A stretch of 32,787 bases of DNA from contig CAJBEZ010000113.1 of NCBI GenBank assembly GCA_903952205.1, positions 1-32,787 on the forward strand, given 5' to 3'. The notes under the pieces are model-generated. The model worked only from the letters and a program-made list of their open reading frames with translations, made no database searches and was not told where the DNA came from. Below, piece by piece: positions 6,358 to 32,690 of the stretch (the stretch's first letter is position 1; every line of letters starts with the position of its first letter). This DNA comes from an uncultured Desulfomonile sp. GTDB lineage: Bacteria; Desulfobacterota; Desulfomonilia; Desulfomonilales; Desulfomonilaceae. Position numbers and translations under genes: made by a program.

Positions 6358-6756
6358 TTGCCCGATCGAGGCTGCGCTGAGAAGACACTTAGGGAACCCA
6401 TGTCGATGAGTATCTTTTGTCATGCGCATCCTCTGACTTCACTGAGGAACATTTTGAGAAAACAGAAGGTGGTTACATCTAGTAATTTGCGTCGGATGCC
6501 CAGTGGCGCAACAGTTAGAGTTTCAGGAATGCTGATTCTGGTTCACACGCCACCCACCAAGTCCGGCAAAAGAGTTATGTTCTTGACGCTGGAAGATGAA
6601 GTGGGGCTTTTTGAAGTGGTGGTCTTCTCTAAGGCTCAAGATAGTTTCGCAGGGATGATTTTGACCAGTGAGGTATTAACGATTGAAGAAAGACTGGCGT
6701 CAGGGGCCCACAGGCCTAGCTATATTCATTATCATGAAGAAGGCAAAAGGCAATGA
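6358..6756 (+). pseudogene. DnaE-type OB-fold remnant (error-prone polymerase C-terminus)
   Basis: The open frame covers 132 aa. Residues about 45-110 (SGATVRVSGMLILVHTPPT, KRVMFLTLEDEVGLFEVVVF) match the OB-fold found near the C-terminus of DNA polymerase III alpha/DnaE2 proteins. Everything upstream in those proteins (PHP, palm, fingers) is absent, and the segment before residue 30 looks unrelated. A standalone OB-fold protein is possible, but the DnaE-like linker (ILTSEVLTIEERL) and the decayed surroundings favour a gene fragment. Confidence 0.55.
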
Positions 6757-6783
6757 TTGGCCTTTGCGGAAGTTTGGTGAAGC

Positions 6784-6830
6784 TTTTGGGATATGTAATC
6801 AAAATTCCCAAACTTAGGACATATTCCAAA
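6784..6830. repeat. Imperfect inverted repeat
   Basis: TTTGGGATATGT (6785-6796) and ACATATTCCAAA (6819-6830) are complementary at 11 of 12 positions, around a 22-base spacer. The pair sits between the DnaE remnant and the decayed transposase. It could be an old IS end or a simple hairpin. Confidence 0.4.
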
Positions 6831-6991
6831 CCGTCCACTACGATTAACCCTACAACGCAACTTATTGATTTCTTGTTTGCAATTCCATCCAATGCCTGCC
6901 ATCCTACGCAACATACCATAAAAAGAGGAGGCAGGCTATGCTCCCGTGTCCACGATGTGACGAACACCTCTAACCGGTCCCAAAATTTGAC

Positions 6992-7980
6992 TTGGACAGA
7001 GACGATATTGCAGCTTTCATCCACGAACTCAGAGGCTTCCACAAACAGTTCGCCGACTGTTTTGTACTAAGCGAATCCAGGGAGCACTTCTTCAACTACA
7101 TGGCCGGCCAATTCAGCGAGCTGGAACGGAAATCCATTGAACCCATAGCACTGGCTCTGAAAGACAGCAATATCAGAGCATTGCAGCGTTTTATCAGCGA
7201 TGCCCCGTGGGACAATGACAGAATTATGCCCAAGTATGGTAGTTTGGTTAGTGATGATCTAGGCAGTCCAGATGGAGCCCTTGTCTTCGACGAAAGCTGC
7301 TTTGTCAAGAAAGGCTAAAACTCAGTCGGTGTCGCTCGCCAATACTGTGGAACAATCGGAAAAGTCGACAATTGCCAGGAAGGAGTCTTTGCCGGGTATG
7401 TGTCTGAACACGAATATGCCTTGGTCGACAAGCGACTGTTTATCCCTGAGAAGTGGTTCGGGGACGACTATGTTGAGCGACGAACAAAGTTCAATCTGCC
7501 TGCTGAAATTGGTTTCCAGTCCAAGCCCAAACTGGCGACGGAAATGCTCACTGCCCTCAGCCAAGAAGATGTCCTACCTTTCAAGTATGTGCTTGCCGAC
7601 TCTTTGTACGGAGTCAGCCCTGAGTTTATCTCAGCAGTTAAGGCACTGCCAGGCAAAACCTACTTCGTATCGGTTCCCAAAGATACCCAATGCTGGTTGA
7701 AGCGGCCGATGACCATTACCAAAGAGTGCCGCTGGGGAGGAAAGGAACGCAGGAAGAGAGTTTTGGCTGCTCCTGACACCAAGCCCTTGACCGTGGAGGA
7801 TCTCGCCAGAAACATGAACGACTAATTCTGGTATCGTCGGAAGGGACCAAGGGGCCAATCGTCTATGATTTTACCCGACGCCGGGTTATCCTGGCGGCTG
7901 CCGGGCTTCCAAAGAAAACCGTTTGGTTGTTGATCCGTCGAACGTTGGGCAACGATCCGCAATACAGCTATTTCATCAAA
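6992..7980 (+). pseudogene. IS701-like DDE transposase, decayed
   Basis: The frame beginning near 6992 encodes an N-terminal transposase part (residues such as ERKSIEPIALAL, VFDESCFVKKG) and hits TAA at 7316-7318. The same frame resumes immediately with NSVGVARQYCGTIGKV, FIPEKWFGD and LPFKYVLADSLYG, so the stop probably replaced a Lys codon. A second stop (7823-7825) and then a frame change near 7845 lead to GPIVYDFTRRRVILAAAGLP. The sequence is lost at about 7980, where the plsC-like gene ends on the other strand. The C-terminal catalytic region is missing. It resembles IS701-family transposases; the assignment is from remembered motifs. Confidence 0.75.
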
Positions 7981-7983
7981 TCT

Positions 7984-8784
7984 TCATTTATCATTTTTCT
8001 CCATTTGTTGTGCCACTGAGTCAGCGCTGATTCGAGGAGCGAAGCGCCATTTAAAAGGATCATATTCCGGATCGAGATATTTTTTCATTTCGGCTCGAGT
8101 CTTTTCCATCAAAGCCGGCACATCCTTTTCATCGAGACCTGTAGTCATAATAGGGTTGCCAATGATCACTTTCACATGCCCCGGCTTGATGAGCCTTGAA
8201 CCCCTGGGCATGATCTTAAACGGGCCATTGCAAGTTACAGGGAGAATCGGAACACCGGTCCTGATTGCCAATATAAATGGACCTTTTTTAAACGGGAGCA
8301 TCAGCCCGTCGGGGGTTGTGGTCCCTTCCGGATAAACCAGAAGGCTCCAGCCATCATTGAGTTTTTCCGAGGCGCCTAATATGGCATTGAAAGCCTTGTC
8401 GCGTCTGGACCGGTCTATGGAGACAGCTCCGATAGATTTCAGGCCGCATCCGAATAACGGAACGCTCATCAATTCTTTTTTCAGAACCCATCGAAAGCGC
8501 ATGGGCAATGTCGATAACAACGGTAGGAAATCCGTAATCGATTGATGATTAGGCGTGATAATGTAAGAAGCGCTTGAATCAATATTCGTGGCATTTTCGA
8601 TAGAGCACGAAATCCTCAGCGCCCTCAGGACGAGTTGAGCCCATTTGACCGTCAATCTTTGAGCTGCCTTGCCGGATATGAAACGGCTTATAATAATGAC
8701 TGTGGTAGAGACTATTGTGGTGGCCGCAATTACAAAAATAAGCGGCAATACCATTCCCGTAAAAATGTGAATAGGAAAAGTCAA
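7984..8784 (-). CDS. 1-acyl-sn-glycerol-3-phosphate acyltransferase (PlsC family)
   Basis: This 266-aa protein has an N-terminal membrane helix (about residues 10-38) and the acyltransferase motifs: NHQSITDF (HX4D, the catalytic His-Asp), a central RSRRDKAFNAI block, VYPEGTTTP (EGT, phosphate binding) and GVPILPVT. PlsC enzymes acylate lysophosphatidate to phosphatidate at the inner membrane. The start shown is TTG 8784; ATG 8751 is an alternative that would shorten the N-terminus by 11 residues. Its 3' end borders the decayed transposase. The patatin-like gene lies 150 bp upstream on the same strand, so lipid turnover may be a shared theme. Confidence 0.85.
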   Translation of the reverse strand: MTFPIHIFTGMVLPLIFVIAATTIVSTTVIIISRFISGKAAQRLTVKWAQLVLRALRISCSIENATNIDSSASYIITPNHQSITDFLPLLSTLPMRFRWVLKKELMSVPLFGCGLKSIGAVSIDRSRRDKAFNAILGASEKLNDGWSLLVYPEGTTTPDGLMLPFKKGPFILAIRTGVPILPVTCNGPFKIMPRGSRLIKPGHVKVIIGNPIMTTGLDEKDVPALMEKTRAEMKKYLDPEYDPFKWRFAPRISADSVAQQMEKNDK

Positions 8785-8934
8785 TGTTGCTTTCTCATTG
8801 AATACTTAGATTTAGATGCATCGAGGTACAATCCAATGTTTATTGCTTGAAGACATTACGGTTAAGATTACCTGGCCTGTGTTAGAAAGTTCGGGAGAAG
8901 ATTCTTGTTTTCTGACACTGGCTCATGCATCTCT

Positions 8935-9774
8935 TCATTCATTTTCTAAAATATTTTTTCTGAGAAGCATCCGCAGCTCCTCAATTGCAGGCTGGGTCTG
9001 TCGGAAAACATCCTCAATTTTGTTGAAATCGAACATCCTCACGTCGCTGATTTCAGGATGGATGTAAATGTCCGGCTCCAGATGCTTCATCTTCTCGGCA
9101 AGGGCCGACATTTGCATGATCTCGAAAGTTCCAAGGATTGACTCCAAAACTGTAGGGGGGTCGAGTTTGCCTGGAGTTCGGGCCTTGGCGACGTTCACAA
9201 CAATCGACACGTCGCATCGGTCAATAATGTGGTCGTATGGAACCAAGTTCACAACGCCCCCATCCACAAGCACTTTATCGCTGATTGATACCGATCCAAA
9301 GACCCCGGGGACGGCCATACTGGCCTTTAACGCTGGAAGGAGTTCCCCCTTTTCCATAACAACTTCCTCACCGCCCCAGAAATCGGTAGCAACCACAAGC
9401 AGGGGTGTCTCGAGTTCTTCGAATGTTTTTTCTCCGATCTCAGATAATAGATAGCTCAGGAATTTATCTGTGTTTATCAGTCCTCCTCGCCCGAATTCAA
9501 GCGACAAAGCATCAACCCATTTCAGTAAATCCGCTTTCTTCCTGAGGACATCCGGCCAAGTATCGCTCTTTGACACGGTATGTCTCATGATTAATTCTCT
9601 GATGGTTTCTCCAGACATTCCTGACGCATAGAGGGCGCCGATGACAGCGCCCATGCTGGTTCCTGATATCACGCTTGGCCTGCAGTCAAACTCATCGAGG
9701 GTTTCCAGGACAGGGATATGAGCTAGACCCCGTACCCCTCCACCTCCCAATGTTAAACCAATTCTTCTCTTCAC
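8935..9774 (-). CDS. Patatin-like phospholipase / NTE family serine hydrolase
   Basis: This 279-aa cytosolic protein starts at GTG 9774 behind GAGG. It has the oxyanion-hole loop GGGGVRGLAH (residues 10-19), the nucleophile motif GTSMG with S40, and VDGG with D171, the Ser-Asp dyad of patatin-like lipases. The central FWGGEEVVMEKGEL and MAVPGVF segments are typical of bacterial RssA/YchK-like members. It probably hydrolyses membrane phospholipids or lysophospholipids. All catalytic residues are present and the length is normal. Confidence 0.9.
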   Translation of the reverse strand: MKRRIGLTLGGGGVRGLAHIPVLETLDEFDCRPSVISGTSMGAVIGALYASGMSGETIRELIMRHTVSKSDTWPDVLRKKADLLKWVDALSLEFGRGGLINTDKFLSYLLSEIGEKTFEELETPLLVVATDFWGGEEVVMEKGELLPALKASMAVPGVFGSVSISDKVLVDGGVVNLVPYDHIIDRCDVSIVVNVAKARTPGKLDPPTVLESILGTFEIMQMSALAEKMKHLEPDIYIHPEISDVRMFDFNKIEDVFRQTQPAIEELRMLLRKNILENE

Positions 9775-10264
9775 ACCCTCACCTCACTGCCATGAAGGCC
9801 GGCCGCCACCTTTGCTTAACGGAGAGCAGTGAACTTTAGAGATTGATGATTGACCAGACACTTTGAGAAACGGCGTCCAACATGTTTGAGAAAAAGCGTC
9901 TGCCGCTCCATCAATGTACCGGAAACTACAGATGTCGCATGAGGACGACCCGTAATAAGAAATACTCCCTTAGAGCTCCAGAATCAATACCAGTTTTAGA
10001 TAGGATGGACTAATTCATTTCACGTTTTAAGATTTGGCGCATTTTGAATCGAGTCGGTATCAGAAGGGGTTTCGTAATTATTGTGGTACTCGCACCATTC
10101 TTTTAAGAAAATATGTCATTCGGAAAGGCATAATCACAGGTCAGACTCGATTACCCTCACAGCGAGGACACACCACTGGCATGGGCCAAGGAAAATCTCG
10201 CCCCTTGGCAACAATCTCCTTGATGGAAACAAGAACGCAGACTATCATTAGAAAACCTTTTAGG
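9775..10264. other. Non-coding stretch, no gene recognised
   Basis: Roughly 490 bp upstream of the patatin gene with no recognisable product. A 124-aa forward frame (10034-10408) runs straight through the dispersed repeat at 10263-10366 and has no family resemblance, so I do not call it. The promoter of the patatin gene should lie near 9790-9850. Confidence 0.4.
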
Positions 10265-10366
10265 GCCAAAAGCCCGTACATGGTTCGGGCGGTAGCTCCA
10301 TTAAAACCACCGCCCTCTTTCAGTCCATCTATTCTGATACTTTTCCCTCTCAGGTTAATATATGAG
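10263..10366 (+). repeat. Dispersed hairpin-containing repeat, copy 1
   Basis: About 95 bp, from GCCCGTACATG to the AATATAT end, match the reverse complement of 32691-32787 at roughly 90% by eye. The central 39 bp running from CCGCCC through CTATTCTGATA are identical. The element contains GGGCGGT...ACCGCCC arms that can form a hairpin, plus CCCG/CGGG arms. It ends within a few bases of an IS-like end at 10366. It is probably a non-autonomous mobile repeat or an IS-associated end. Confidence 0.75.
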
Positions 10367-10610
10367 CCTCTTGCAAAACTCTTTTTTGTGGGGGTTAAGC
10401 ATGTGTAATAAATTATGGTTGATAGGAACCATGCAACGAAGTCTGTTTCCTAAATTGGAAGAGTCTTGGAATGGCCCTTTTACTGAAAAAGAGAAACAGA
10501 CCATAGCATCATTACACGACAGTCAGGTTGCCATACCGCTCATGAAGATAAGCACCTCCAGAGTAATCTATTTCTATGATGTTATGGATTCGGCCTATTG
10601 TACTGCGTAA
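10364..10610 (+). mobile_element. Fragment of an IS element (transposase N-terminus only)
   Basis: After GAGCCTCTTGCAAAACT, a sequence resembling terminal repeats of IS5/IS1182-type elements, a frame from ATG 10431 encodes MQRSLFPKLEESWNGPF and TEKEKQTI. This is similar to the start of such transposases. The similarity stops after about 30 residues and the frame ends at 10610. No DDE catalytic domain is present. The assignment is tentative. Confidence 0.45.
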
Positions 10611-10867
10611 ACCGTAAACAAAGGATTATCTACGTTGGCGCTAAAGGAACCAAGGAGCGAAATAAAAAACGAGTCCCCATTCATTTTGAGCTGTTGTCAA
10701 TTTTTAACGGCCTTAAGGTTCGTGAATTAAACAATCAAGACGTGTTTGCGATTAATGGACAGCCTTTAGGTAAAGACTCAACTAAAAAGGCATGGGATAG
10801 GGCGTTAACAAAATGTAAGCAAACCGCCGAAAAAGAGGAAATGCTCCGATGCGCCTCGAAGCAATAA
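10598..10867 (+). pseudogene. Tyrosine recombinase (phage integrase) remnant
   Basis: The frame encodes RIIYVGAKGTKERNKKRVPI and HFELLSIF, which matches the beta-sheet and following helix of the integrase catalytic domain (the TKxxRxRxVPL segment). The N-terminal SAM-like domain, the first catalytic Arg, the H-x-x-R box and the Tyr nucleophile are all absent. The fragment stops 26 bp from the 3' end of tRNA-Ala, a classic integration target, so it is probably the remains of an island integrase. Confidence 0.6.
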
Positions 10868-10892
10868 CCTATTATAATCATGATGTTTGGCG

Positions 10893-10967
10893 TGGTGGAG
10901 ATGATGGGATTTGAACCCACGACCCCCGCGTTGCGAACGCGATGCTCTCCCGCTGAGCTACATCCCC
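10893..10967 (-). tRNA. tRNA-Ala (anticodon CGC), CCA encoded
   Basis: A full cloverleaf can be folded on the minus strand: acceptor GGGGATG/CATCTCC with the G3-U70 pair diagnostic of alanine tRNA, D stem GCTC/GAGC, anticodon stem TCGCG/CGCGG with loop TTCGCAA (anticodon CGC, reads GCG), T stem GTGGG/CCCAT with TTCAAAT loop, A73 and an encoded CCA. It is 75 nt long. The integrase remnant abuts its 3' end. Confidence 0.96.
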
Positions 10968-10979
10968 ACGTATCTCATT

Positions 10980-11008
10980 AAATTAACATTTAATTATATA
11001 TCTGTCAA
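10980..11008 (-). promoter_or_regulatory. Sigma70-type promoter of tRNA-Ala
   Basis: On the minus strand, TTGACA (11003-11008, perfect -35) is separated by 17 bases from TAATTT (10980-10985, -10). The -10 ends about 12 bases before the first base of the mature tRNA. Confidence 0.7.
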
Positions 11009-17967: not shown

Positions 17968-20900
17968 CTAAACGGGAACCAGTTTTACGTGAGTGTCATA
18001 GAAACTGACGCTTCCGCCAACAGGATCTAGCATACAAGTGTTTTTAAGCGCCGGATCTATCCACATTGCTGCGTTAGCGTGAATGCCCGTGTCCCTGTTG
18101 GGTTCGCCCTTGATGACAGCGCCGTCAATAGAGAAATCTGCGGCCCCGGTAGCCCAGTGACCAAAACCCAGGGCAAAACTCGTCACACCCGGTCTCATTG
18201 TCTGCGTTAACTGCAATCTGCCAATCATCAACTTTTTTCTCCCAGCCCCGAGATCCCACTCCCCCGATGGATTGGTTGCGCTGACCACTTTCACTTTCTG
18301 GCCGTCTTTCAATCCGAGTCGTATTGCGTCAGTCGGGTTTATCAACACTGCGTTTTCAGGCATTAGAGGATGAAGCCATTGGTTGGTTATCGTCCGGCTT
18401 TTTGTATGCACGATTGATCTGTGAGTTATAAGCGCCAAGTCGTAACCTTTCCTCAAATCATCCGGCTCCTTCCCATGATAATCCATGATGGGAATGTAGT
18501 TTGCGTAGCCCTTATTTTTCTTGCCTGTTCCGGAGTGAATCGTGGAAGCTGTCTTCTCCTGATACAAGTTCAGGAGTTTTCCATAAGGATGCGCCAGTCT
18601 GTCTCCTTTGTAAGCTTTGTCGTGATCTTCGAAACGACCGCCACGATTCAAAACATAGACTACCTTTGGCCAGACTTTCTCCCCTGCTATTTTCTTCCAC
18701 CTATCGACGTCGAAAACGGTCTTTGGCAAGTTCCTACGAGCCTCCAGGAACACGTCGATTTCCTTCTCATCCGCATCGGGGACTGAGTCCGATCCGTCAG
18801 GTTTCTCACCAAAGGCCAGATTGGCCACAGCCCGAATGTAAAAGTCATCAAAATGCTTCAGATCCATACCAGGGCCGAACGCATCCGCCCCGAATCCCGG
18901 AAGTTTCAGATTTTCGGCGAGGGCAAAAAGCATGCTTTCAAAACTAATAGGCATCTCAGCCTCAAAAGCCTTGCAGGTCTGGGGGATAGGCGCCATTGCA
19001 GGCTGCCTCACGGGCTGTACCTTGCAAGTCATGCTTGGGTGACTGCCCTGGAATTCCCATCGTTCGAGATAGGATAAATCGGGGAATATGTAGTCCGAAT
19101 ACATTGACGTAGTTCCGATCAGGATGTCGCTGGTAATGAAAAGAGGAACCTTTTCAAGATCACAAAGGATCTTGATATTTGTCTGCCCGGCAGGCAACGA
19201 ATATGTTGGAGCGCCCATATACAGGAACAGGGCTTTTACAGGATAAGGATATGCGTCTCCTATCGATGGAATAATCTCTTCATAAATGTCGCTACTGAGC
19301 GGGTACCAATTGCGTTTAGCAGGATAGCCTTCGAAAATCGTTGTCTTTTCATAATCCAGGCCGTGTCGGATCGAGCTAATTCCAAATGGCCCCATCTTGC
19401 CTGGCTGAGCCTTCAAGTCGTAAAGTTTACCCTTGCCCATTGTGTCGTATGTAGTAGCCTTACTCATTCCACCCTTGGCGTCAAAATTGCCGAGGAGCAT
19501 GTTTATTGTCATCCAGCTCAATACGTTGTAAAAGCCATTTGTGTGTTGAGCCGGTCCTCGATGTATATCCACGGCCGCTTTTTTTCCATGGCTGGTGAGT
19601 TCTCGCGCCACATCAATCATGTCGGACTCTTTTACTCCGGCAATGTCTCCCCACTCCTTGAATGATTTTTGTTTAACGTTGTCCAAAAGTATCTGCAGAC
19701 CTGACTTCACTTGTGTTCCATCAGGCAATTTTGCATCCACGAACAGGTCAGCGAACACTGGAGTCTTAGTGTCGTTCGGATCAACCACAGTAGGAGTTCC
19801 CTGAACCATGGCCACAAGGAATTTTTCCTGATAATCCTTACCATCCTTTGTCTTGCGAGTCTCGGGCGAAGCCAATCCAACGTCTGCCGCTCTAACAAAA
19901 TTTCCTGGCTTGCCATCTTTGATTTGAACGAGCCAGGTTGTGTTTGTCCAACTAGTCTCACCGTTGGCCGTCGCTGCAGCTTTATTGGCATTGGAGAGAA
20001 ACTTCTCATCGTAACGCTTGTTTTCCAAGATCCAGCGAATCATGCCTGAAGCAAGAGCCGCGTCTGCGCCAGGCTTGATCGGCAGCCATTTCCAGGCTTT
20101 GGACGCCAATTTGCTGAACCTTGGATCGGCGACGGCGATTTTGGTGAAGCCGCTGACGAGATTGCCGGTCAATCTTACAGTTCTGTTAGGAGGACCATAG
20201 TTACCTTCAAAAAGATTCGCTCCTACGAAAAACACAAACTTGCTGTTTTCCGTGTCGGCCTGCCAATAGAATTTGTTGCCGTCGGTGAACTTACCGTCAA
20301 CGTATTGTTCACTTATCGCCTTACATGTAAAATAAAGCGAACCCTGACAAACGGTAGTGTGCCCATGAGCGTTAGTGGTTCCAAGACCGTCGGCAAATCT
20401 TTTGTACAGATCGCTCCTACCCCCCTTCAGCCGTCCCCATGCCACTACTATCTGATTGTTTTTCGGACCAAAGTCGGGGTGATTTGGATCGATTAGCTTA
20501 TCTAAATCAGCGGAGTGCTTGTGTTTGAACTCTTCGACAAGAGCCTTCTTTTTCTCCTTGTCCTTCTCATCAAGGATAGCCTTGACATCAGTGGCCATAG
20601 CCTTGGCCACTTTCGCGTCCTTTAGAACAGCTATCTTTGATAATCCTTCGACCTCTCTGTTCTGTTCGCCGGGAACATTAGCGAATAGCTTGCCACCTTC
20701 AGCGATTTCCTTTATCGCTTGATCGAAGGAGATCACTGTCCACTTGTTTTCCCCACGTTTACCAGCCCTCTTTAACACTTTTCTGATCCTGTAGGGATCA
20801 TAGGCGGTTTGAAGGCCGGCCTGCCCTTTGGGACAAATTGCTCCGTCAATGGCGGCGGCGGTTTCCACATTTGTTTTGAATGGTATCTGCGGGAGCAAGG

Positions 20901-21192
20901 TCCACGGGTTGTAGGGATTGCCGTCGATCTTGACTATTATTCCATCCTGCAACTTGGCGGATATCCCACAGCCGGTGTTGCATTGGAGGCAAGCAGTGTG
21001 AATTGTGTTCGACGGTTTAGAAAGCTCATAAGGCGCATCGGCGCGATCATTATTCATAATTGCAGAGTCCCGTTTATCCGGAGCGGCAGCGGCCTCGGTT
21101 CCGGCAAGGGCTATCCCGGCGCCCAATAGAGCGCCACCAGCCAGGAATCCTCTACGGGACGAATGCTTTTTGTTGTTATGGTAGTTCATCAT
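17968..21192 (-). CDS. Tat-exported molybdopterin oxidoreductase catalytic subunit (TtrA/SrdA-like)
   Basis: About 1074 aa from ATG 21192 (GTGAGG just upstream, 18 bp after the NrfD stop); the longer frame to 21453 overlaps the NrfD gene and is not used. The signal is SSRRGFLAGG (R13, R14) followed by an Ala/Gly-rich stretch. C68, C71 and C75 (CLQCNTGC) plus C120 (ICPKGQ) form the [4Fe-4S] site. HGHTTVCQGS places C282 as the probable Mo-ligand cysteine. A charged insertion (about 190-235, DEKDKEKKK) precedes it. The C-terminal dinucleotide-binding part includes THRSIVHTKSRTITNQWLHP. Size, CLQCNTGC and gene order B-C-A fit tetrathionate/selenate-type reductases better than ArrA (about 850 aa) or polysulfide reductase. 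The exact oxyanion cannot be read from sequence. It acts in the periplasm. Confidence 0.88.
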   Translation of the reverse strand: MMNYHNNKKHSSRRGFLAGGALLGAGIALAGTEAAAAPDKRDSAIMNNDRADAPYELSKPSNTIHTACLQCNTGCGISAKLQDGIIVKIDGNPYNPWTLLPQIPFKTNVETAAAIDGAICPKGQAGLQTAYDPYRIRKVLKRAGKRGENKWTVISFDQAIKEIAEGGKLFANVPGEQNREVEGLSKIAVLKDAKVAKAMATDVKAILDEKDKEKKKALVEEFKHKHSADLDKLIDPNHPDFGPKNNQIVVAWGRLKGGRSDLYKRFADGLGTTNAHGHTTVCQGSLYFTCKAISEQYVDGKFTDGNKFYWQADTENSKFVFFVGANLFEGNYGPPNRTVRLTGNLVSGFTKIAVADPRFSKLASKAWKWLPIKPGADAALASGMIRWILENKRYDEKFLSNANKAAATANGETSWTNTTWLVQIKDGKPGNFVRAADVGLASPETRKTKDGKDYQEKFLVAMVQGTPTVVDPNDTKTPVFADLFVDAKLPDGTQVKSGLQILLDNVKQKSFKEWGDIAGVKESDMIDVARELTSHGKKAAVDIHRGPAQHTNGFYNVLSWMTINMLLGNFDAKGGMSKATTYDTMGKGKLYDLKAQPGKMGPFGISSIRHGLDYEKTTIFEGYPAKRNWYPLSSDIYEEIIPSIGDAYPYPVKALFLYMGAPTYSLPAGQTNIKILCDLEKVPLFITSDILIGTTSMYSDYIFPDLSYLERWEFQGSHPSMTCKVQPVRQPAMAPIPQTCKAFEAEMPISFESMLFALAENLKLPGFGADAFGPGMDLKHFDDFYIRAVANLAFGEKPDGSDSVPDADEKEIDVFLEARRNLPKTVFDVDRWKKIAGEKVWPKVVYVLNRGGRFEDHDKAYKGDRLAHPYGKLLNLYQEKTASTIHSGTGKKNKGYANYIPIMDYHGKEPDDLRKGYDLALITHRSIVHTKSRTITNQWLHPLMPENAVLINPTDAIRLGLKDGQKVKVVSATNPSGEWDLGAGRKKLMIGRLQLTQTMRPGVTSFALGFGHWATGAADFSIDGAVIKGEPNRDTGIHANAAMWIDPALKNTCMLDPVGGSVSFYDTHVKLVPV

Positions 21193-21209
21193 AAACCTCA
21201 CATGTCTTC

Positions 21210-22394
21210 TTAATATCTGGATTCTACGAGTTGATTCAATTTTGCGCCGATGTAGAAAATGGTCATTGCAACTGATATCATCAGTAAGGCCACAAGATAC
21301 TCCATAGCCGTTATGTGGTAGCTGTATGACAGCCTTGGGTCTTGAAAAGCCTCGGCCAGTCCCGGAATCTGGCCAACCACCTGCCCCGGCACCAGGATGC
21401 AAAGACGTGCGGCGCCAAACCCAACGATTGAAAGTAATGACCCCAAAAACCATGCGCCTCTACTTCTTGAAGCTAAAAGAATTAACGGAGCTACTACACC
21501 TACACCAAGGTGTAAGACCCAAAAAACCATCCAATATCCGCCGAAGAGCAGATATTCGGTGTTGGGAGAGTACACTCCCGGATTCCAAAAAGTGATTGAA
21601 AACTCGGCGAACTCAAAGACCACGTATACGATGAGACCTATCAAGATTGTCGCCCTTAACACTCGGAACGCCGAATCCAGATAAGCTTTGTCAGCCCTGG
21701 AAGATGACTTTGGCGCAGTGGCAGCCCGAACAAACAGGAGCGAGCCTGCTCCGAGGGTAATTGCGGAAACGAAAAACAGCATCGACAATAGGGGGCTTCT
21801 CCAGAATTCATTAGTGCGAACAGCCTCGAAAAAAACCCCGCTTTGACTCGGGAACACTATCGAAAAAAACATCCCTAGCGTTAGCAGCGGTTTCAGCCAT
21901 GAGGTCTTTTGTTTGAAACTCAAAAACCAGCAAAGAACGGCTACGACCATAAATATGTTGTACATCCAGGCGTTGAAAGCCATCATACTTGTGAAGGACG
22001 GGTGAACAATAATATTCATCAGCCTGTCCATACGCCCCAGATCCAACCAAACGCCCAGGAACGCCGGTAAGATAGCCGCTAAACTCAACACTATCGCGCA
22101 CCTTAAGTCCGAAGATTTGGAGAACCCCTCAACTCCGAATAAGTAGCCAAGGCCACCAAGAATGAATGAACCTCCCGAGATCCCGACTCCAAGAAAATAC
22201 ACGCCTATCCATAGGCCCCACGGCACATAGGATCCGTAACCGGCGGCGTTATGACCGTGAGTCATTCTAAGAACTACACCAACAATGCCTGCGATAAGAA
22301 AAAAAATCCAAACGAGCCACAGAATTGGGGTCCATTGATTGCCGAGCCCAGATCCACCCTGAATCTTGTCGGAGGAGTAATCTTGCTTCGTCAT
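21210..22394 (-). CDS. NrfD/PsrC-type quinol-oxidising membrane subunit
   Basis: About 394 aa from ATG 22394, which has GGGAGGA seven bases upstream; the longer frame to 22448 overlaps the FeS-subunit gene. It has eight to ten membrane helices, starting WTPILWLVWIFFLIAGIVG, and the SYVPWGLWIGVYFLG, LDLGRMDR and HPSFTSMMAFNAW motifs of the NrfD family. These subunits take electrons from menaquinol and pass them to the FeS subunit. It lies between the B and A genes with gaps of 17 bp on either side, so the three form one operon. Confidence 0.92.
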   Translation of the reverse strand: MTKQDYSSDKIQGGSGLGNQWTPILWLVWIFFLIAGIVGVVLRMTHGHNAAGYGSYVPWGLWIGVYFLGVGISGGSFILGGLGYLFGVEGFSKSSDLRCAIVLSLAAILPAFLGVWLDLGRMDRLMNIIVHPSFTSMMAFNAWMYNIFMVVAVLCWFLSFKQKTSWLKPLLTLGMFFSIVFPSQSGVFFEAVRTNEFWRSPLLSMLFFVSAITLGAGSLLFVRAATAPKSSSRADKAYLDSAFRVLRATILIGLIVYVVFEFAEFSITFWNPGVYSPNTEYLLFGGYWMVFWVLHLGVGVVAPLILLASRSRGAWFLGSLLSIVGFGAARLCILVPGQVVGQIPGLAEAFQDPRLSYSYHITAMEYLVALLMISVAMTIFYIGAKLNQLVESRY

Positions 22395-22411
22395 GGAATA
22401 TCCTCCCTTTC

Positions 22412-23338
22412 TTAAACGATGTAGTAGCACTTGGGCTTGTTGTCCCAATGTGGTAAAAGAGTCTGAACGTTGTTCCTGGTCACCAATTCAACAACCATGC
22501 TGTCCTGGTCATTAGAATCCCCAAAATATGTCGCCCTGCCTATACAGGTTGTTACGCAAATCGGCAATAACCCGTTTTCGAGTCGATGCAAGCAGAAATG
22601 GCACTTTCTTGCGTTTCCTACCGGCGAGCCATGATCTTTTCGATTCCAGGACTTGCCATATTCGTTACTGGGCAAACCTTCCCAGGGAGCTGGCGCCCCG
22701 GATATCGGCCTATCCTTTCCTTCCGGGGCCCCTTGCGCCTCGTTTGAAGTGTAGTTTCTACCAAAGTCGCTTGTTCTTGCGCCGTAAGGACATGCGTTGA
22801 GACAATATCGACACCCGATGCACTTGTCATAATCTATTACAACAACTCCGTCAGGTCGCTTCCATGTGGCCTTGACCGGACAAACCGGAACACAGGACGG
22901 GTTTTCACAGTGCATGCAAGGTCTGGGAAGGAAATGAAGCTGTACATTAGGAAACTCTCCAGTTTCTCGCTGAATGACCGGTCTGTAGACGACCCCGGGA
23001 GGCAGTTTATTCTCAGCTACGCAACCTATCGTACAGGCCTGGCATCCAACGCATTTCCGAAGATCGATCACCATTATCCATCTACGCTTTTCGACAGGTT
23101 TTGACATGGCCGTGGCCAATTCCCGTTGCATTCTGATGTGATCATCTTCGTTGTGTTGAGGTTTAAGGTCTTTTAAGGCCATAAGATTCCTTACGGTCTT
23201 TTCACCGGTAGGATCCTTTGAGGGGGTCGCCATACGATCCTTCACAATCACGGCGCCGGCCGCCACAGCCCCAGCGCCTATGAGGCCTCCGGCGAGAATA
23301 AATTCCCGTCGTTCCATGATTTCGCTTACCTTCTTCAT
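22412..23338 (-). CDS. Tat-exported four-cluster ferredoxin-like FeS subunit
   Basis: About 308 aa from ATG 23338 with AAGGAG eight bases upstream. A twin-Arg signal ([20 protein letters not shown]) leads to a periplasmic protein. Sixteen cluster-binding cysteines are arranged as in PsrB/TtrB/Nrf[36 protein letters not shown] and [11 protein letters not shown]...CVTTC. These hold four [4Fe-4S] clusters carrying electrons from the NrfD subunit to the molybdopterin subunit. A Tat signal on both A and B subunits means both carry an export signal. It is preceded by the receiver gene (65 bp gap) and followed by the NrfD gene. Confidence 0.93.
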
Positions 23339-23403
23339 CCCTATCTCCTTATAATTGTCGCGGTGATCCGATCTAGCTCCAACGGTCAATCAGCGATATC
23401 GAA

Positions 23404-23811
23404 CTACACATCAAAGCTACTTTCCTTTAATGCTGTAATCATCGGGTTTGTATTAGCCTCTGTTATGCTGTTAAGCCAGTAGACAAGCTCATCGGCGTTC
23501 AATGGCTTGCCCAAACATGCGCAAACATCTTCTTTCAATGATTCTTTAAGCTCCGGATGGTAGGTTCGGCTTGAGAATGCTACGATCTGCACCCCCTTGT
23601 GACTTCGACGAAAATCGCGAATCTGCCGATTCGTAATCTCTTTTCCGTCAAGATCGATGAGTAAGACACTTGACCAAGTCCGATCCAATTTCTGAGTTGC
23701 ATCTTCAATTGACTCACAACTCTCGATTTCATAACCACCTTCATCCAAAATCGATTTTATCTCATCACTCAGGTAGATTTCAGAGCCGACAAAAATTAGC
23801 TTGGATGCCAT
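23404..23811 (-). CDS. Stand-alone receiver-like protein, acidic pocket degenerate
   Basis: About 135 aa from ATG 23811 (AAGAGG upstream). The longer frame to 23868 is rejected because the -24/-12 promoter lies inside it. The fold follows a response-regulator receiver: strand KLIFVGSE, helix, VLLIDLDGKE with the phospho-acceptor-position Asp, VQIVAFSSRT, and CLGKPLNADEL with the conserved Lys-Pro. The usual acidic pair after strand 1 (DD) is replaced by GSE, so phosphorylation may be weak or lost. It has no output domain. As first gene of the reductase operon it may act as a feedback partner of the regulator; this is inference. No histidine kinase is in the window. Confidence 0.75.
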   Translation of the reverse strand: MASKLIFVGSEIYLSDEIKSILDEGGYEIESCESIEDATQKLDRTWSSVLLIDLDGKEITNRQIRDFRRSHKGVQIVAFSSRTYHPELKESLKEDVCACLGKPLNADELVYWLNSITEANTNPMITALKESSFDV

Positions 23812-23846
23812 GGAAACAGGCCTCTTGAAAAGTATGCCAATCGACT

Positions 23847-23862
23847 TACAAAACCTGTGCCA
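23847..23862 (-). promoter_or_regulatory. Sigma54 (-24/-12) promoter of the reductase operon
   Basis: On the minus strand the sequence is TGGCACAGGTTTTGTA. It matches the consensus TGGCACG-N4-TTGCW except for A in place of G at position 7 and T in place of C in the -12 element. The GG-N10-GT spacing is correct. The predicted start is at about 23835, about 25 bases before the receiver gene's ATG 23811, with its ribosome site in between. A sigma54 activator gene lies directly upstream. Confidence 0.72.
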
Positions 23863-23965
23863 TTTCAAATATGTGCTCTGTGATTCGCACTAAGCCTTGG
23901 AGCCTACTTCTGAGCAACCTGTGTAATAGATCTTGTTACGCACCAACTGGAGGGAAATCTGCAGA

Positions 23966-24157: not shown

Positions 24158-26359
24158 CTAATGGATGGTTCTTTTGTCCAAACCGTATCGGCGCAGCTTC
24201 GAATACAGGGTGCTTCGGCCTATTCCTAGCTCTTGAGCTGTTTTCTTCTTGTTCCAGGCATTTCTCGATAGCGCGTTTTCAAGAAAAGCCCTCTCATTCT
24301 CGGAAAGATTCGGAACATTGAGAGGTTGACTTTTTGCTTCAAATCCTCTTAGTGAGGACGGAAAATCACCGACTTCTATCGCTTGCCCCTTAGACCTTAC
24401 AACAGCGTGTTCTATACTGTTTTCAAGTTCGCGAACATTACCCGGCCACGCATAGTCCATTAGTATTCTCAGGGATTCTGAACTATATTCAGTAATGTTT
24501 TTCCCCTGCTCAGAGCTAAAACGTTTCAGAAAGTATCTCGCCAACATTGGAATGTCGTTTCGGCGATCTCTAAGTGGCGGTATAATGATGGGGATAACAT
24601 TCAACCTGTAAAACAGGTCTTCGCGGAATGTTCCTCTTTGAACCTCCGCCAACAAATCCTTGTTGGTCGCCGCCAGGATCCTGACGTTAATTGAAATGGT
24701 TCGCTCAGCTCCCAAGCGTTCAAATCGGCGAGTCTGCAAAACCCTGAGCAGCTTGATTTGGACCTGAGGCGGAATTTCACCAATCTCATCCAGGAAGACT
24801 GTCCCACCATCGGCCTGTTCGAATCTGCCGGCCTTCTGTCTCAAGGCGCCGGTGAAAGCCCCCCTTTCATGGCCAAATAATTCACTTTCTATAAGGGTTT
24901 CGGGATAAGCCGAGCAGTTAATGACTACAAACGGCATGATTCTTCTGTCGCTTCGCTCATGGATAGCTTTCGCCACCAACTCTTTCCCTGTGCCGCTTTC
25001 TCCCTGAATCAAAGCCGTAGCGTCAGTGGGGGCGATATCCTCAATAAGTCGGTAGACAATCTGCATTTTCGGGTCTTTACCAATTATGCCGCTGAATTCC
25101 GAAGAAGCCTCCAGTTTTTGCTGAAGGTTTAGAATCGCCTCCTCATGCGCAATTGAGCGCCTAATGACTCCTCCGGCCTGATCTAAAATGAGATTTGCCA
25201 TCCTCATTTCTTCGGAGTCACACTTGCACGTCGGGGAACAACCAACGACTAGAATGCCGTAAACTCCTCCATCAGCCCTTATTGGGAGGATTGATTCCCG
25301 ATCCCGCCGATTGAACGAATCGGGTAAGGATAAACCTTGCAAACACGATATGGATTCAATTTTGGGCTCGGTTAACTTGTCTACAATCCGGATTACCAGA
25401 TTTACCTGCTCCGAATCACGAGATGTAATAACTTCTCCAGCCGTAATAATGAAAATGAACTCCCTGTTTTCATTTAATAAAAGTATGGATATCTCACCAT
25501 TCAGCACTACTTCTCTGAGCCTGTAAATCAAGGTTTGTCCTAAGTCGCGTAAATTGGGAAGAGAGCCGAGTTCCCTGACTATCTCACAGAAAGTTCTGGT
25601 TTGATTGTGGACCCTTTCTATTTCCAGCTTCTGGTTTTCCAGTCGCTCGGTATATTCCTTCAATCGCGACGCCATGCTTTGGAATGACTTGGCCAAGATT
25701 GCCACTTCATCCTGCCCTGATGCGTGAACCTTAACGTCCCACGAGCCTCTGTTAATATTCTCAACAGATCGAGCAAGCTCCCCTAGTGGTCGGGTAATTC
25801 TTTTTACAAAAAATAAGCTGCCGGCAAGGGCGCCAACGAGTATAATCAAAGTTATCAGGCTCATCTTAAGACGCAAATAGCGAACCTGTCTTTCGAGATG
25901 CTTTTCGGCGACTCCCAATCGCAATAGACCTGCTTTGCCCCCGAAAATCGGCCAAGCGATATCGATGAATTTTTCTCCGTTTGTTGAAACAATAGTCTGT
26001 CCATTACCTTGATCCTCCGAAGTCGCCTTATTTGCGTCCAAAAGCTGTTGAGGGAACCCCTCGTCAAAGGTGTGAGCCAAAACCTGCCCATCACGAACGA
26101 CAAAGAGATAGGCTAATGATCGATTGCTCTTCATCTGATGGTCAAGCGACTTTTGTAAGGCTACTAGATCATGAGTGAGGACCTTGTCGGCCGATTCCAT
26201 CGCCAACGCATGCGCCAGATTCTCGGCCTGGACCTTTGCAGAATCAATCAGACTCTCGCTATATTGCCGAGAAACAAGCAAAGAAAGGGCCAAACCGCTG
26301 CTGATAACGAGCAATGAAGCCGCCACCAACAGTTTAGTCTTGAGGCTTCGAAAACCCAT
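24158..26359 (-). CDS. Transmembrane sigma54 activator: periplasmic sensor-HAMP-GAF-AAA+-Fis HTH
   Basis: This 733-aa protein starts at ATG 26359 with GGAGA upstream. TM1 is at about 9-30, a periplasmic sensor region at 31-160, TM2 at 166-185, HAMP at 186-240, a coiled linker, and a GAF-like domain at 255-400. The sigma54 AAA+ domain (about 420-655) has Walker A GESGTGKE 453-460, GAFTGA 500-505 and Walker [12 protein letters not shown] 518-528. A Fis HTH is at 690-725. GAFTGA is intact, so it should contact sigma54. The GAF region carries C374, C378 and C380 (GCSPTCKC). Sensor and activator are in one polypeptide, without a kinase or receiver. The gene overlaps the PhnD-like lipoprotein gene by 26 bp, so the two are translated together. 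Likely target: the promoter at 23847-23862. Confidence 0.92.
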
Positions 26360-27335
26360 TCTTGGTCTCCATGCTTGTCCCTGAGGATTCTAGAACAGCC
26401 CGTATTGAATTATACCAATCGTCTTTGGCCACAACGAATCTGTCAATCATTAAACGATCAAGTATCTCAGCGCCTTTCTTATCAGCTCGCATCCCAAAAA
26501 GCGCCTCCTTGATTGCTTCCTTTGTTGAGACAGCCACCTGCATTGAGGCAACAAGAGGAGGCATTCCGTAATTCTCGGATTTTAGGATAACCCTGGTCTT
26601 GGAGGTAATGTCCGGATTGGTTTTGCTAAAATATTCCCATATCAAACCGTCAACCGACGCTCCATCTACCACTCCCTTTGAAACTGCCAGTATCGAATTG
26701 TCATGGCTGTAAGTGTAAATAAAAGAACCGAAAAAGGTTTCTGGTTTTTCCCCGATCTTTTTGAGCCAGGCTGCAGGGGCAAGCTTTCCGGTGTTGGAAT
26801 CTGGGTCAGTGAATGCAAAGGCTTTCCCCCGAAGGTCCTCAAGCTCATTAAACCGACTATCCTTGTTCACAATTAGATAAGCGTTGTAGAAATGTGACCC
26901 ATTGACTTCAGGGACAGCCAGCAACTGGAGGCCAGACTTATCCTTGCCCACTACATAGGGCCCTGAACAGACAAATGCCAAGTCGACTTCACCCGTGCCT
27001 AATAATTCATTGATCTCCTGGTAAGTTTTTCGTTGTTTAAAAACAATTTTTTTTCCGAGTTTCTCGCCCAGATAATCCAACAATTCCTGATAAGTTGAAA
27101 GTGACTCTTTCGGAGAAACCATTGCCCCAATAGCTATTCGTAATTGATTATCCCCTTGCTCTTTAGTGTCCGGTCTCTCCAGAATGATCGTGTTGGAAAA
27201 GTCTACAACCTTGGCTTGTTCATTGTCCGAGCACCCAACGTTCAAAAAAGCCACTATGATCGTTAACCAAATAACGTAGAAAACGCCTAGCTTGACGCCT
27301 GTAAGGCAAAGCAATGACGATCTGGTTCGAATCAT
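26334..27335 (-). CDS. PhnD-like periplasmic oxyanion-binding lipoprotein
   Basis: This 333-aa protein has a long signal sequence ending in the lipobox LNVGC (C35), so it should be a membrane-anchored lipoprotein. The mature part is a PhnD/TctC-like type II solute-binding protein: LRIAIGAMVSPKESLSTYQE, LLDYLGEKLGKK, TGEVDLAFVCSGPYVVGK, LEDLRGKAFAFTDPDSNTGK and VVDGASVDGLIWEY. Such proteins bind phosphonate, phosphite and, in sensor roles (the TtrS sensor domain, ArxX/ArrX), related oxyanions. No ABC permease or ATPase gene is nearby, so a sensory rather than transport role is likely. It overlaps the membrane sigma54 activator by 26 bp. It is divergent from the cytochrome gene (182 bp apart). 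Confidence 0.88.
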   Translation of the reverse strand: MIRTRSSLLCLTGVKLGVFYVIWLTIIVAFLNVGCSDNEQAKVVDFSNTIILERPDTKEQGDNQLRIAIGAMVSPKESLSTYQELLDYLGEKLGKKIVFKQRKTYQEINELLGTGEVDLAFVCSGPYVVGKDKSGLQLLAVPEVNGSHFYNAYLIVNKDSRFNELEDLRGKAFAFTDPDSNTGKLAPAAWLKKIGEKPETFFGSFIYTYSHDNSILAVSKGVVDGASVDGLIWEYFSKTNPDITSKTRVILKSENYGMPPLVASMQVAVSTKEAIKEALFGMRADKKGAEILDRLMIDRFVVAKDDWYNSIRAVLESSGTSMETKNGFSKPQD

Positions 27336-27517: not shown

Positions 27518-28750
27518 ATGAACAAGAAATATAGACTCCCGACTATCGTCAAATCTCATAGAGTGACAGTCATATTGATACTTTTAGGAATGACTCTCGT
27601 TCTGTTTCTGGACAATCCGGCCCTGGCTAAAGGCGAGCCCGAAGTTCAAGTCAATTCGCTCGCTGAACTCGTGAAGATGTTTGACTCCTCGAGTTGTAAA
27701 GAATGTCACAAAAAGATTTATGAGCAATGGGAGAAGTCACATCACGCTCGACCACTGATGGGTCTTAATGACCAGATATTCATCAAAGGGTATCTGGTGA
27801 GAGGACCGCTCGCTGTTAAGCCTGGGGAGAAAGCTACAAAATATAACTTCCCGTGTTTCAAATGCCACTTCCCGCAGATAAAATATGCGACGGACCTGGT
27901 AGCCGCCGAAATAGCGGACGCTGTGTTGAAAGATGACAAAGAGACCATTCGCAAACTGAACATCAGTTGTCTGGTTTGTCACAATGAAAAGGCCGTCGTC
28001 CATGGCCGACCAGAGAAAAATGTCATTTATGGGAACAAAGACATAATTGATCACCCCAAGACCCCTGTCAAGAAAAGTCCTCTACTCAAGAATTCGCTGC
28101 TGTGCGGGCAGTGCCACGGGCTTGGTCCGAACCTTGAGTTTGAGACGCCAGTGCAGTGCGCAACACTTTACGGTAGTTATCTACACGCATACATCCCTTC
28201 CGGTGGAACAGAGACTTGCCAGCAATGCCACATGAAGGATGGCGATCACTACATGCCTCCGAATTTCAACAACAGGGTTGAGTTCTCGGAGCGCATGAGA
28301 GACGCTCTTCCTATGCAGGTTCGGACGTTAGCGTATTCGTTCCAGCCGAAAGAAGGAGATGTTCGGCCGATGGTAGTGGTAAATACGAAAATCACAAGTA
28401 AGGCGGGCCATCGAATCCCGGATGGTTGACCGTCCAAGACTGAAGTGGTCCTGGATGTGACCGCAACCGATACTACCGGCAAGAAAATATTCCAGACGTC
28501 AAAAATTTACATGGCTCAGGCTACAGATTCCCGGTCAAACCACATGGTCTTGGGACCCGACAAGAAGTTGGGTTTCATTCGTGATACCAGCATTCAGCCC
28601 TTCATCTCCAAGGAAGAGACATTCGAAATCCCTTTGCCACCAGGGGTTACGGATGTGGATCTGGAAATTAGCCTCCGTTATCAGCCGAGACCGGGGGACA
28701 TTTACCCAATCCACACGATCAAAAGGAGTGTCAGTCTCGACCAGAAATGA
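27518..28750 (+). CDS. extKL: Five-haem c-type cytochrome with in-frame TGA, candidate selenoprotein (ExtKL-like)
   Basis: The frame from ATG 27518 has a signal or anchor helix (about 15-37) and five CxxCH sites: C60KECH, C113FKCH, C151LVCH, C196GQCH and C234QQCH. At codon 304 (28427-28429) it meets TGA in the context GHRIPDG-TGA-PSKTEVVLDVT. The same frame then stays open to TGA 28748-28750 and encodes a plausible C-terminal beta domain. The whole would be 410 aa. I recall relatives named ExtKL (multihaem (seleno)cytochromes linked to Geobacter ext operons), in which this residue is Sec or Cys. Two alternative hairpins follow the TGA (28432-28456; 28445-28464). The alternative is a nonsense mutation giving a 303-aa protein. 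It probably transfers electrons in the periplasm. Confidence 0.7.
28432..28464 (+). promoter_or_regulatory. Candidate bacterial SECIS hairpin(s) after the in-frame TGA
   Basis: GTCCAAGACT (28432-28441) pairs with GGTCCTGGAT (28447-28456) at nine of ten positions, closing a GAAGT loop that starts with G, as bacterial SECIS loops do. Its loop begins 12 bases after the TGA, shorter than the usual range. A competing stem, GTGGTC (28445-28450) with GACCGC (28459-28464), puts an eight-base loop 21 bases after the TGA but lacks a G in its first two bases. Neither is a textbook element. Confidence 0.4.
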
Positions 28751-30676: not shown

Positions 30677-30982
30677 GCTGCACCCTTTTGTTCGGCGCTA
30701 AAAACTTCAAAACGATCTCCGGAATAGTGTCTGAGGAAGCCTTCAGACATTTGGCTTGTTACGGCATTATGGCGCCACAGGAAAATAACTCTCGACTTTT
30801 GAGTTTTCATTCCCACGATCCTCTCGTCAGTGAAATGGGAAATACGATCAATTCCTACTAAAACCCATTCTTGGGTGACGACAATCTGTTAATTGAAGAT
30901 TTAACCAGAACCTCAATTAACAGAAAAAACTAATTGACTCATTCCTTTCCCTCAAGTGTCTTAAGAATTAAGTTTGCGAATT
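30677..30982. other. Intergenic region with an 11-bp perfect inverted repeat
   Basis: About 300 bp between the acr3 stop and the SGNH gene, no gene seen. CTGTTAATTGA (30886-30896) and TCAATTAACAG (30913-30923) are perfectly complementary around 16 bases. The stem is AT-rich and no T-run follows in either direction, so it is either a weak terminator for acr3 or an operator. Confidence 0.55.
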
Positions 30983-32047
30983 TTACCTGTGCCAAACCGG
31001 CCCACCCTTAAAATATTTGTCCCTGAATTTGAATGCTACATTTACAAGACCTATTAGAACTGGAACTTCTATCAACGGTCCGATTACAGTAGCAAAGGCC
31101 TCGCCTGAATTGATGCCGAACACTGCGATAGCCACTGCAATCGCAAGCTCAAAGTTGTTGCTCGCCGCTGTGAACGATAGAGTGACAGTTTTTGGATAAT
31201 CGGCGCCGATCTTATGTCCCATCCAGAAACTCACGAGAAACATAACAACAAAATAGACACACAAGGGAATGGCTATCCTGACTACATCGAACGGAATGGT
31301 AAGAATTAAATTGCCCTTGAGACTGAACATAACAACAATCGTGAATAACAAAGCTATCAGCGTGATTGGGCTTATCGTTGGGATGAACTTATTCTCATAC
31401 CACGCTTTACCCTTGATCTTCAGCATGATGAATCTCGTGAGAATTCCACCAAAGAAGGGAATCCCAAGGTAAATAAACACGCTTTCCGCAATCTGCTTCA
31501 TGCTGACCTGTACAACGCTCCCGCTGAGACCAAAAAGAGGAGGAAGCACGGTAATAAAGAACCATGCGTATAAACTGAAAAAGATAACTTGAAAAACGCT
31601 GTTGAACGCAACCAAACCCGCAGCGTATTCAGTATCACCCTCCGCAAGTTCGTTCCACACGATGACCATGGCGATGCATCGGGCCAGGCCGATCATGATT
31701 AACCCAACCATGTATTCGGGTCGGTCAGGCAACAACAAGATCGCAAGGAAAAACATGAGCACTGGGCCTACTACCCAGTTCTGAACCAATGAGAGGACCA
31801 AAACTTTTGTGTCGCGAAAAACTTGCCCCATCTCTTCATATTTAACTTTTGCCAAAGGCGGGTACATCATAAGTATCAAGCCTATTGCAATAGGCACGGA
31901 TGTTGTCCCAACCTGCAGCCCGGCGATGAATTTTGTGATAGCCGGAGCGAAATATCCAATCCCGATGCCCAAAGCCATCGCAATGAAGATGATCAAAGTC
32001 AGGTATCGGTCAATAAGGGAGAGACTTTTTCTAGATGCCATGACCAT
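30983..32047 (-). CDS. acr3: ACR3-family arsenite efflux permease
   Basis: This 354-aa protein has about ten membrane helices. The family motifs are visible: the conserved catalytic-type cysteine in [12 protein letters not shown] (C124), [25 protein letters not shown] and [10 protein letters not shown] with its conserved Glu. ACR3 proteins export As(III) (some also Sb(III)) by proton antiport. The start is ATG 32047 (AAAGG upstream); ATG 32041 is an alternative. The arsR gene lies 112 bp upstream on the same strand, the standard arsR-acr3 arrangement. No ArsC-type arsenate reductase is adjacent. Confidence 0.93.
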
Positions 32048-32159: not shown

Positions 32160-32534
32160 TTACTTGCCGATCTTCGACTTGCAAAGCGCATCGGGATCCA
32201 GGCGTACGTTTTCGTTAAGTATCTTTAGGTCATCCAGAATAACAGGATCATTTGAAGTTGCTTCACAAACCCAATTCAAGGCCTGTTCAGCTAAAAACGA
32301 ACGTCCTGGGTCATTATTCAGCCTGTAATAGACCCATCGGCCTTTCTTTCGCGATTCAACCAAGCCCGCCTGTTTTAGTATCGACATGTGCTTGGAGACC
32401 GTCGAGTGCGCCAGTTGTAGCAATTCAACGATTTGACATACGCACAACTCGCCTGTTCGCAGCGCCATGATGGCCCTCAACCTGTTTTCATCGCTAATCG
32501 CCTTAATAATGTCCAGGAATTTTGGGATACTCAT
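32160..32534 (-). CDS. arsR: ArsR/SmtB-family metalloregulator of acr3
   Basis: About 124 aa from ATG 32534; the longer frame to 32591 and an ATG at 32546 are possible and none has a strong ribosome site. The winged-helix fold is clear: FLDIIKAISDENRLRAIMAL, then ELCVCQIVELL with C31 and C33 (the As(III)-binding CVC in the recognition-helix region), HSTVSKHMSILKQAGLV and the wing RKKGRWVYYRL. ArsR represses its own operon and leaves DNA when arsenite binds the cysteines. It lies directly upstream of acr3. Confidence 0.92.
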   Translation of the reverse strand: MSIPKFLDIIKAISDENRLRAIMALRTGELCVCQIVELLQLAHSTVSKHMSILKQAGLVESRKKGRWVYYRLNNDPGRSFLAEQALNWVCEATSNDPVILDDLKILNENVRLDPDALCKSKIGK

Positions 32535-32690
32535 AAGTCTATACATCGCCACATAACGAAATATATGAATACTTAACTCACCGCATTTCAATTGTCAATC
32601 TAGCTGAAAGAATTCTTTCTATTTTTTAGCGTAATGTCTGAAACCCTGTTATTTTTCACATTCTATGGACAGAAAAGGGGTAAATTTTTC

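Follow-up and report, generated by a model that had tools for sequence, protein, structure and literature searches.

Probable selenocysteine decoding in an ExtKL-type pentahaem cytochrome, and an ExtKL branch located among arsenic-handling genes

ExtKL and the related cytochromes

ExtKL of Geobacter sulfurreducens (GSU2937-2936) is a pentahaem c-type cytochrome for which a selenocysteine (Sec) at the junction of ExtK and ExtL has already been predicted in print (PMC6148476, PMC5877670). A 2026 review tabulates selenoprotein families, ExtKL (NF040886) among them (PMC13188914). Related sequences in the PDB are those of MccSep, a "multiheme cytochrome c selenoprotein" (9wt8, 9wta and 9wtb), and a sequence with Ala at the Sec position that is labelled in part "mutant (MccSep U325A)" (9wt9 and 9wtc). 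The small pentahaem cytochromes (sPHC) of cable bacteria have been grouped with ExtKL by structure prediction, and one of them has a two-gene layout like that of ExtK/ExtL (PMC11976967). The words selenocysteine and selenoprotein do not occur in the main text of that article; the two-gene sPHC may reflect an unrecognised Sec TGA.

The locus described here lies in a stretch of 32,787 nucleotides of DNA from an uncultured Desulfomonile sp., which is referred to at its full length as the window. Its selenoprotein is an additional member of this selenoprotein family already described from metal-reducing bacteria. Like the Geobacter protein, it is a pentahaem cytochrome with a predicted Sec at the junction. 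Unlike in Geobacter, the neighbours scanned are arsenic genes with no recognised ext partner: the porin ExtI, the rhodanese ExtH and the multihaem ExtM/ExtN were not seen among the window ORFs scanned, a scan whose queries did not include ext proteins. In a PDB sequence search with the window protein, MccSep and its U325A-labelled counterpart were the best two matches. They align over residues 45-375 with 230.4 and 231.2 bits and place a non-standard X and an Ala, respectively, opposite residue 304, where the Sec is predicted.

The internal TGA and its alignment column

The extKL gene occupies positions 27518 to 28750 on the forward strand and encodes a protein of 410 residues. A sequence-only reading of this DNA had described a pentahaem cytochrome with a single TGA in an otherwise open 410-codon frame, followed by 106 sense codons, and each of these points was confirmed, coordinates included. 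The TGA is codon 304 (28427-28429), and the final stop codon of the frame is likewise TGA. Five CXXCH haem motifs are present in the read-through protein: CKECH (residues 60-64, 27695-27709), CFKCH (113-117, 27854-27868), CLVCH (151-155, 27968-27982), CGQCH (196-200, 28103-28117) and CQQCH (234-238, 28217-28231). The protein begins with a hydrophobic N-terminus, taken from its sequence as a putative export signal or anchor, and continues with a haem domain and a C-terminal beta domain. The ORF listing (translation table 11) splits the gene into a 303-residue frame and a 101-residue frame with a GTG start (28445-28750), which is the truncation that had been expected of gene callers. With mechanical gene calling the protein ends after 303 of its 410 residues, and the probable reactive residue and most of one domain are missing.

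The proposed ExtKL-type identity proved right, as the read-through protein matches NF040886, "multiheme c-type cytochrome (seleno)protein ExtKL", at 467.1 bits across the TGA (cut-off 250). The part before the TGA covers profile positions 8-314 (347.2 bits) and the part after it positions 316-422 (95.5 bits), so the TGA occupies the single profile position left over. The segment after the TGA is under purifying selection, with dN/dS values (NG86) of 0.152, 0.093 and 0.085 against the homologues L022, L037 and L038, compared with 0.046, 0.037 and 0.036 before the TGA in the matching comparisons; with L036 and L023, dS was saturated and no ratio was obtained. Because both halves match adjacent stretches of the profile and selection acts downstream, the split by a TGA is more than chance.

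The same feature recurs throughout the family. In a draw of 395 genomes from the phylum, 40 contain NF040886 matches above the cut-off. The 50 matches of this draw, window included, hold one TGA in 43 cases, no stop in six and a TAA in one; the match with TAA has Cys (TGT) at the Sec column and its TAA elsewhere. Seven of 42 genomes in a class sample exceed the cut-off, with exactly one TGA in all seven matches. The order of genome G313 adds 11 of 21 genomes with one TGA in each of 11 matches, six of which are already counted in the 395-genome draw. The sequence-only reading had allowed for an assembly error at the TGA, which is very unlikely given its recurrence in 43 of 50 above-cut-off matches.

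Homologues were aligned across the TGA in 53 rows, window included, without duplicate loci, distant homologues and the partial rows L025, L026 and L096. The Sec column contains Sec-TGA in 47 rows, Cys in four, Ile in one and Val in one. The expectation of Sec or Cys at this position is therefore borne out in 51 of 53 rows, and it does not extend to the two paralogues with Ile or Val or to distant relatives from gammaproteobacteria (best segments 22-32% identical), which have Ala. The Ala of these relatives makes Sec look like a speciality of the ExtKL family, and the Ile and Val of the paralogues indicate that Sec is dispensable to the fold. The conserved GHxxPDG motif of the family is present in the window protein, where the context reads GHRIPDG-U-P. 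His298, Pro301, Asp302 and the non-haem Cys214 are invariant in all 53 rows, and Cys214, His298 and Pro301 are kept also in the three gammaproteobacterial sequences that were aligned.

The paralogues with Ile or Val are L078 (G068:C12), which sits in tandem with a Cys-type ExtKL copy, and L069 (G238:C132); loss of the redox residue after duplication is a possible explanation for both. A further locus, L096 (G127:C8:94530-95026), is a broken second ExtKL copy whose two matching pieces lie in different frames by coordinates.

An AlphaFold model of ExtKL generated with 8 sequences is poor overall (mean pLDDT 53.8), and its beta domain alone is usable, with pLDDT of 78-93 for ten-residue blocks within 261-290, 311-330 and 361-410. 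The modelled beta domain has seven strands, two before the TGA and five after, and Sec304 falls in a low-confidence loop (301-307) between strands of this domain. His298, six residues upstream of Sec304, is probably an axial haem ligand, and the sequence position of Sec304 suggests that it may lie near a haem or substrate site.

These results bear on whether the TGA is a true nonsense mutation that leaves extKL as a pseudogene truncated at residue 303. Gene decay does occur nearby: a 36-residue remnant on the reverse strand (30694-30801), similar to an ArsC-type (LMWPc) protein of genome G010 (tblastn, 58%, 2e-9), lies between the gene for an F5/8 type C protein and that for the permease ACR3. 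The identical TGA column in dozens of genomes, the purifying selection after the TGA and the strands of one beta domain that flank it nevertheless make a nonsense mutation in extKL very improbable.

Decoding machinery and the SECIS hairpin

The genome that holds the window (4.78 Mb, 99.99% complete by the tool used) was searched for the machinery of Sec insertion, as the sequence-only reading had proposed. Matches above their cut-offs were found for selB (398.6 bits), selA (595.2), selD (364.2) and tRNA-Sec (70.3), the last with the anticodon TCA according to ARAGORN. The selD gene of this genome itself has one in-frame TGA, reading TSG-U-AAK.

A bacterial SECIS hairpin, for which the sequence-only reading had also proposed a search, is present downstream of the TGA at 28445-28464 on the forward strand. 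It consists of a 7-bp stem with a bulged U and the loop UGGAU, with a spacing of 22 nt between the UGA and the apical loop and a fold energy of -9.2 kcal/mol. The printed bSECIS model specifies a loop of 3-9 nt with G within its first two positions, a spacing of 16-37 nt, an upper stem of 4-16 bp and an energy of at most -7.5 (PMC13188914). The window hairpin falls within these constraints, though another fold of the 51-nt segment is more stable, with the minimum energy of -11.7 kcal/mol.

The hairpin is conserved at synonymous sites in Sec genes and not in Cys genes. At three positions where wobble bases face each other, 117 of 147 cells are paired in 49 Sec genes, against 63.4 +/- 5.6 expected from synonymous-codon shuffles (n=1000, shuffle maximum 85); related sequences are non-independent, so this signal is strong but carries no formal probability. 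Pairing at the same positions is near expectation in the four Cys genes (4/12 cells versus 4.4), the Ile/Val paralogues (3/6 versus 2.9) and ten distant homologues (14/30 versus 14.0). Sequences outside the window's family were analysed further, using 41 of 43 Sec segments and leaving out L095 (divergent) and L096 (broken copy). Two-sided changes occur in five of nine SECIS pairs among these sequences, which 0 of 500 shuffles reach, and 85.4% of the cells are paired, compared with 25.5-71.3% for slid partners. Pairing fails at the outermost position in 19 of the 41 sequences and at the innermost in 14.

A covariance model was then built from these 41 sequences, without the window's family. The window scores 45.4 bits and is the top match in its genome, and four other genes of the window's family score 42.1-59.6 bits. 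When the model was applied to five non-Sec loci, weak matches at the site were obtained for L069 (16.2 bits) and L077 (11.8), and none at the site for L078, L079 and L080. Screening by free energy gives a weak signal in the 51 nt downstream of the TGA (z averages -0.94 across 49 Sec genes, 8 of which reach p<0.05); the hairpin is clear from synonymous-site pairing alone.

Two candidates were rejected during this search. A second genomic match of the covariance model, at G000:C8:30855 (26.5 bits, E 0.0015), was taken as chance because its TGA is out of frame; the longer open frame overlapping it presumably encodes a rubrerythrin. An earlier hairpin candidate in the window (loop GAAGU, 12 nt from the UGA) is folded, among other Sec genes, by close relatives only, and it lies nearer to the UGA than the printed 16-37 nt (PMC13188914).

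The hairpin also bears on the idea that the locus encodes two proteins, ExtK ending at the TGA and ExtL translated from the GTG at 28445. This arrangement would agree with the listed ORF at 28445-28750 and with the Geobacter gene having been named as two, ExtK/ExtL (PMC6148476). However, the SECIS stem begins with this GTG as its first triplet, a single uninterrupted frame is seen in three of the four Cys homologues while the fourth has its TAA elsewhere, and the MccSep chain in the PDB matches across the site, so that two separate products are highly implausible. An altered code that assigns tryptophan or another residue to TGA would equally leave the frame open. It is scarcely credible when extKL itself ends in TGA, a SECIS hairpin and the Sec machinery are present, and Cys fills the column in four of the six rows that lack Sec.

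The column tally, the bSECIS hairpin, the presence of selA, selB, selD and tRNA-Sec, and MccSep in the PDB together support the original proposal, and we put the probability that the TGA at 28427-28429 is a selenocysteine codon in an extKL-family gene at about 0.93. On this reading of the sequence, ribosomes with SelB and tRNA-Sec would insert Sec304 as directed by the hairpin at 28445-28464, and the product would be a pentahaem cytochrome of 410 residues.

An in-frame TGA was also observed in an ArsP_1-type permease gene of the same genome (G000:C8:127973-128833) and in one ArsP_1-type permease each of the class relatives G007, G010, G011 and G012. These permeases are possibly another selenoprotein.

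Arsenic genes around extKL and a possible function

AioX, ArxX and ArrX are sensors that bind arsenite or arsenate (PMC5908839). Divergent from extKL, on the reverse strand at 26334-27335, lies a gene for a putative periplasmic arsenic-oxyanion sensor of this type, which scores 199.4 bits against the ArrX sequence in the PDB, 161.5 against AioX, 63.1 against PtxB and 38.8 against PhnD. In the alignment it has one Cys common to ArrX and AioX, a candidate counterpart of AioX Cys106. The AioXSR system has a separate kinase and regulator, whereas the gene adjoining the sensor in the window (24158-26359, reverse strand) has no histidine-kinase match in Pfam and encodes a sigma-54 activator with a HAMP domain. 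Given this domain, a single membrane protein may combine sensing with activation. After it, at 23404-23868, comes a gene for a receiver-domain protein.

Further along the reverse strand are genes for a 4Fe-4S electron-transfer subunit (22412-23389, Pfam), an NrfD-like membrane subunit (21210-22448, Pfam NrfD 97.3 bits) and a large molybdopterin oxidoreductase of 1161 residues (17968-21453). The top matches of the oxidoreductase are TtrA, the best in NCBIfam, PsrA-type and ArrA, each below every listed curated cut-off. The cluster at 17968-23389 beside the ArrX-like sensor is possibly an undescribed arsenic- or sulfur-oxyanion enzyme. Positions 1-11000 of the window look sparse in recognisable genes, as three of eight scanned ORFs have a Pfam match above cut-off (patatin, acyltransferase and pyridoxamine oxidase).

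On the other side of extKL, at a distance of 3.4 kb, the reverse strand holds a gene for the arsenite efflux permease ACR3 (30983-32047; TIGR00832, 454.6 bits, cut-off 282.8), followed by one for an ArsR/SmtB metalloregulator (32160-32591; NF033788, 96.2 bits, cut-off 55). The window thus has the pattern of an arsenic island, with genes for an ArrX-like sensor, arsenite efflux and an ArsR-type regulator near extKL. Queries for DsbD-like proteins and thioredoxins gave no tblastn match in the window. In G010, from the same family as the window, extKL is flanked by genes for ACR3, an ArsR-type regulator, ArsE-family and other thioredoxins, a DsbD-like protein, an ArsP_1 permease and an ArsC-like protein below its NCBIfam cut-off. 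The PF03773 permease of G010 also has below-cut-off matches to SaoE and Cu/Zn efflux models; the PF03773 family is not wholly arsenical, which counts against the proposed arsenic function. The island thioredoxins have a hydrophobic N-terminus and a CxPC motif, and the former suggests that they are probably exported. Neighbourhood clusters 2 and 6 were dropped because their ORFs, judged by position and letters, appear to run antisense to extKL and the DsbD-like gene, and the neighbourhood table was redone with tblastn.

The association was quantified for 54 ExtKL genes, comprising 49 of the 50 above-cut-off matches of the 395-genome draw (the G238 fragment was left out), G075 (below cut-off) and four class matches. 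ACR3 or ArsP lies within 10 kb of 12 of these genes, against about 0.78 expected by random placement, counting 30 of 48 ACR3 rows (those over the cut-off) and 72 of 98 ArsP rows and leaving out the weaker rows. In a tree of the 54 proteins made without the Sec column, for which the program warned of long branches, 11 of the 12 linked rows fall in one clade of 17 (support 94/69), with 10 in its 15-row core (97/93). The link label changes six times on this tree compared with 10.9 for shuffles, 0 of 500 being as low, and outside the clade one of 37 genes is near ACR3/ArsP. Six rows in the clade are unlinked, four of them on contigs of 10,061, 6,194, 5,441 and 4,965 bases; three of these four have an ArrX-like gene beside extKL. 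The other two are L087, on a 44 kb contig with ArsR-type matches at about 2 kb, and L088, on a 114 kb contig with neither an ACR3/ArsP link nor an ArsR-type match.

Five further ExtKL genes, from genomes of one order outside the earlier sets, all lie in arsenic islands. Each has ArsP, ArsE-like, DsbD-like and thioredoxin matches as well as an ACR3 match (one at only 30% identity), and four of the five have an ArsC-like match. Earlier positives, and also the unlinked L088, belong to the order of these five genes, which therefore test consistency and not wider spread.

The location of an ExtKL branch among arsenic-handling genes looks new. No report of an ExtKL-arsenic link was found in the literature searched, which was mostly without subscription journals. 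The arsenic passage of PMC13188914 does not name ExtKL, and the mentions of arsenate in PMC5877670 are confined to a reference and to its use by the species as an electron acceptor.

Sec may be real and its arsenic neighbourhood incidental, with ExtKL serving as a general electron-transfer cytochrome of extracellular or metal respiration. Such a role would fit the Geobacter extKL, which occurs with porin-like and further multihaem genes and for which a role in selenite reduction is discussed (PMC5877670), and it would fit the 42 of 54 ExtKL genes without ACR3/ArsP within 10 kb. The excess of linked genes over random placement, their clustering on the tree and the five of five further genes of one order argue against coincidence, and we give the incidental reading a substantial chance, somewhat short of even.

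We tentatively propose, at similar odds, a periplasmic redox cytochrome that handles metalloid species with Sec304 as its reactive group; in the arsenic-island branch these species would be arsenic compounds, and the haems would conduct the electrons. Re-reduction of the Sec would in many relatives fall to two proteins encoded nearby, a DsbD-like membrane protein and a probably exported CxPC thioredoxin. A more specific proposal, which we hold as rather doubtful, is that one ExtKL/MccSep branch is a dedicated periplasmic arsenic enzyme, in which a haem-adjacent Sec, re-reduced by the DsbD-like carrier and exported thioredoxin of the cluster, converts arsenic species.

For ExtKL/MccSep, structures have been solved, yet we encountered no established substrate. 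The recurrence of extKL in arsenic clusters, alongside genes for DsbD- and thioredoxin-like proteins, suggests arsenicals as a substrate class, in addition to selenite and tellurite, whose reduction has been discussed for the Geobacter cluster. The arsenic-cluster branch is accordingly the part worth following. If the proposal of a dedicated enzyme is true, example substrates would be the arsenicals, methylated or inorganic, that ArsP and ACR3 release, and some of these cells would sense arsenic by an ArrX-like protein.
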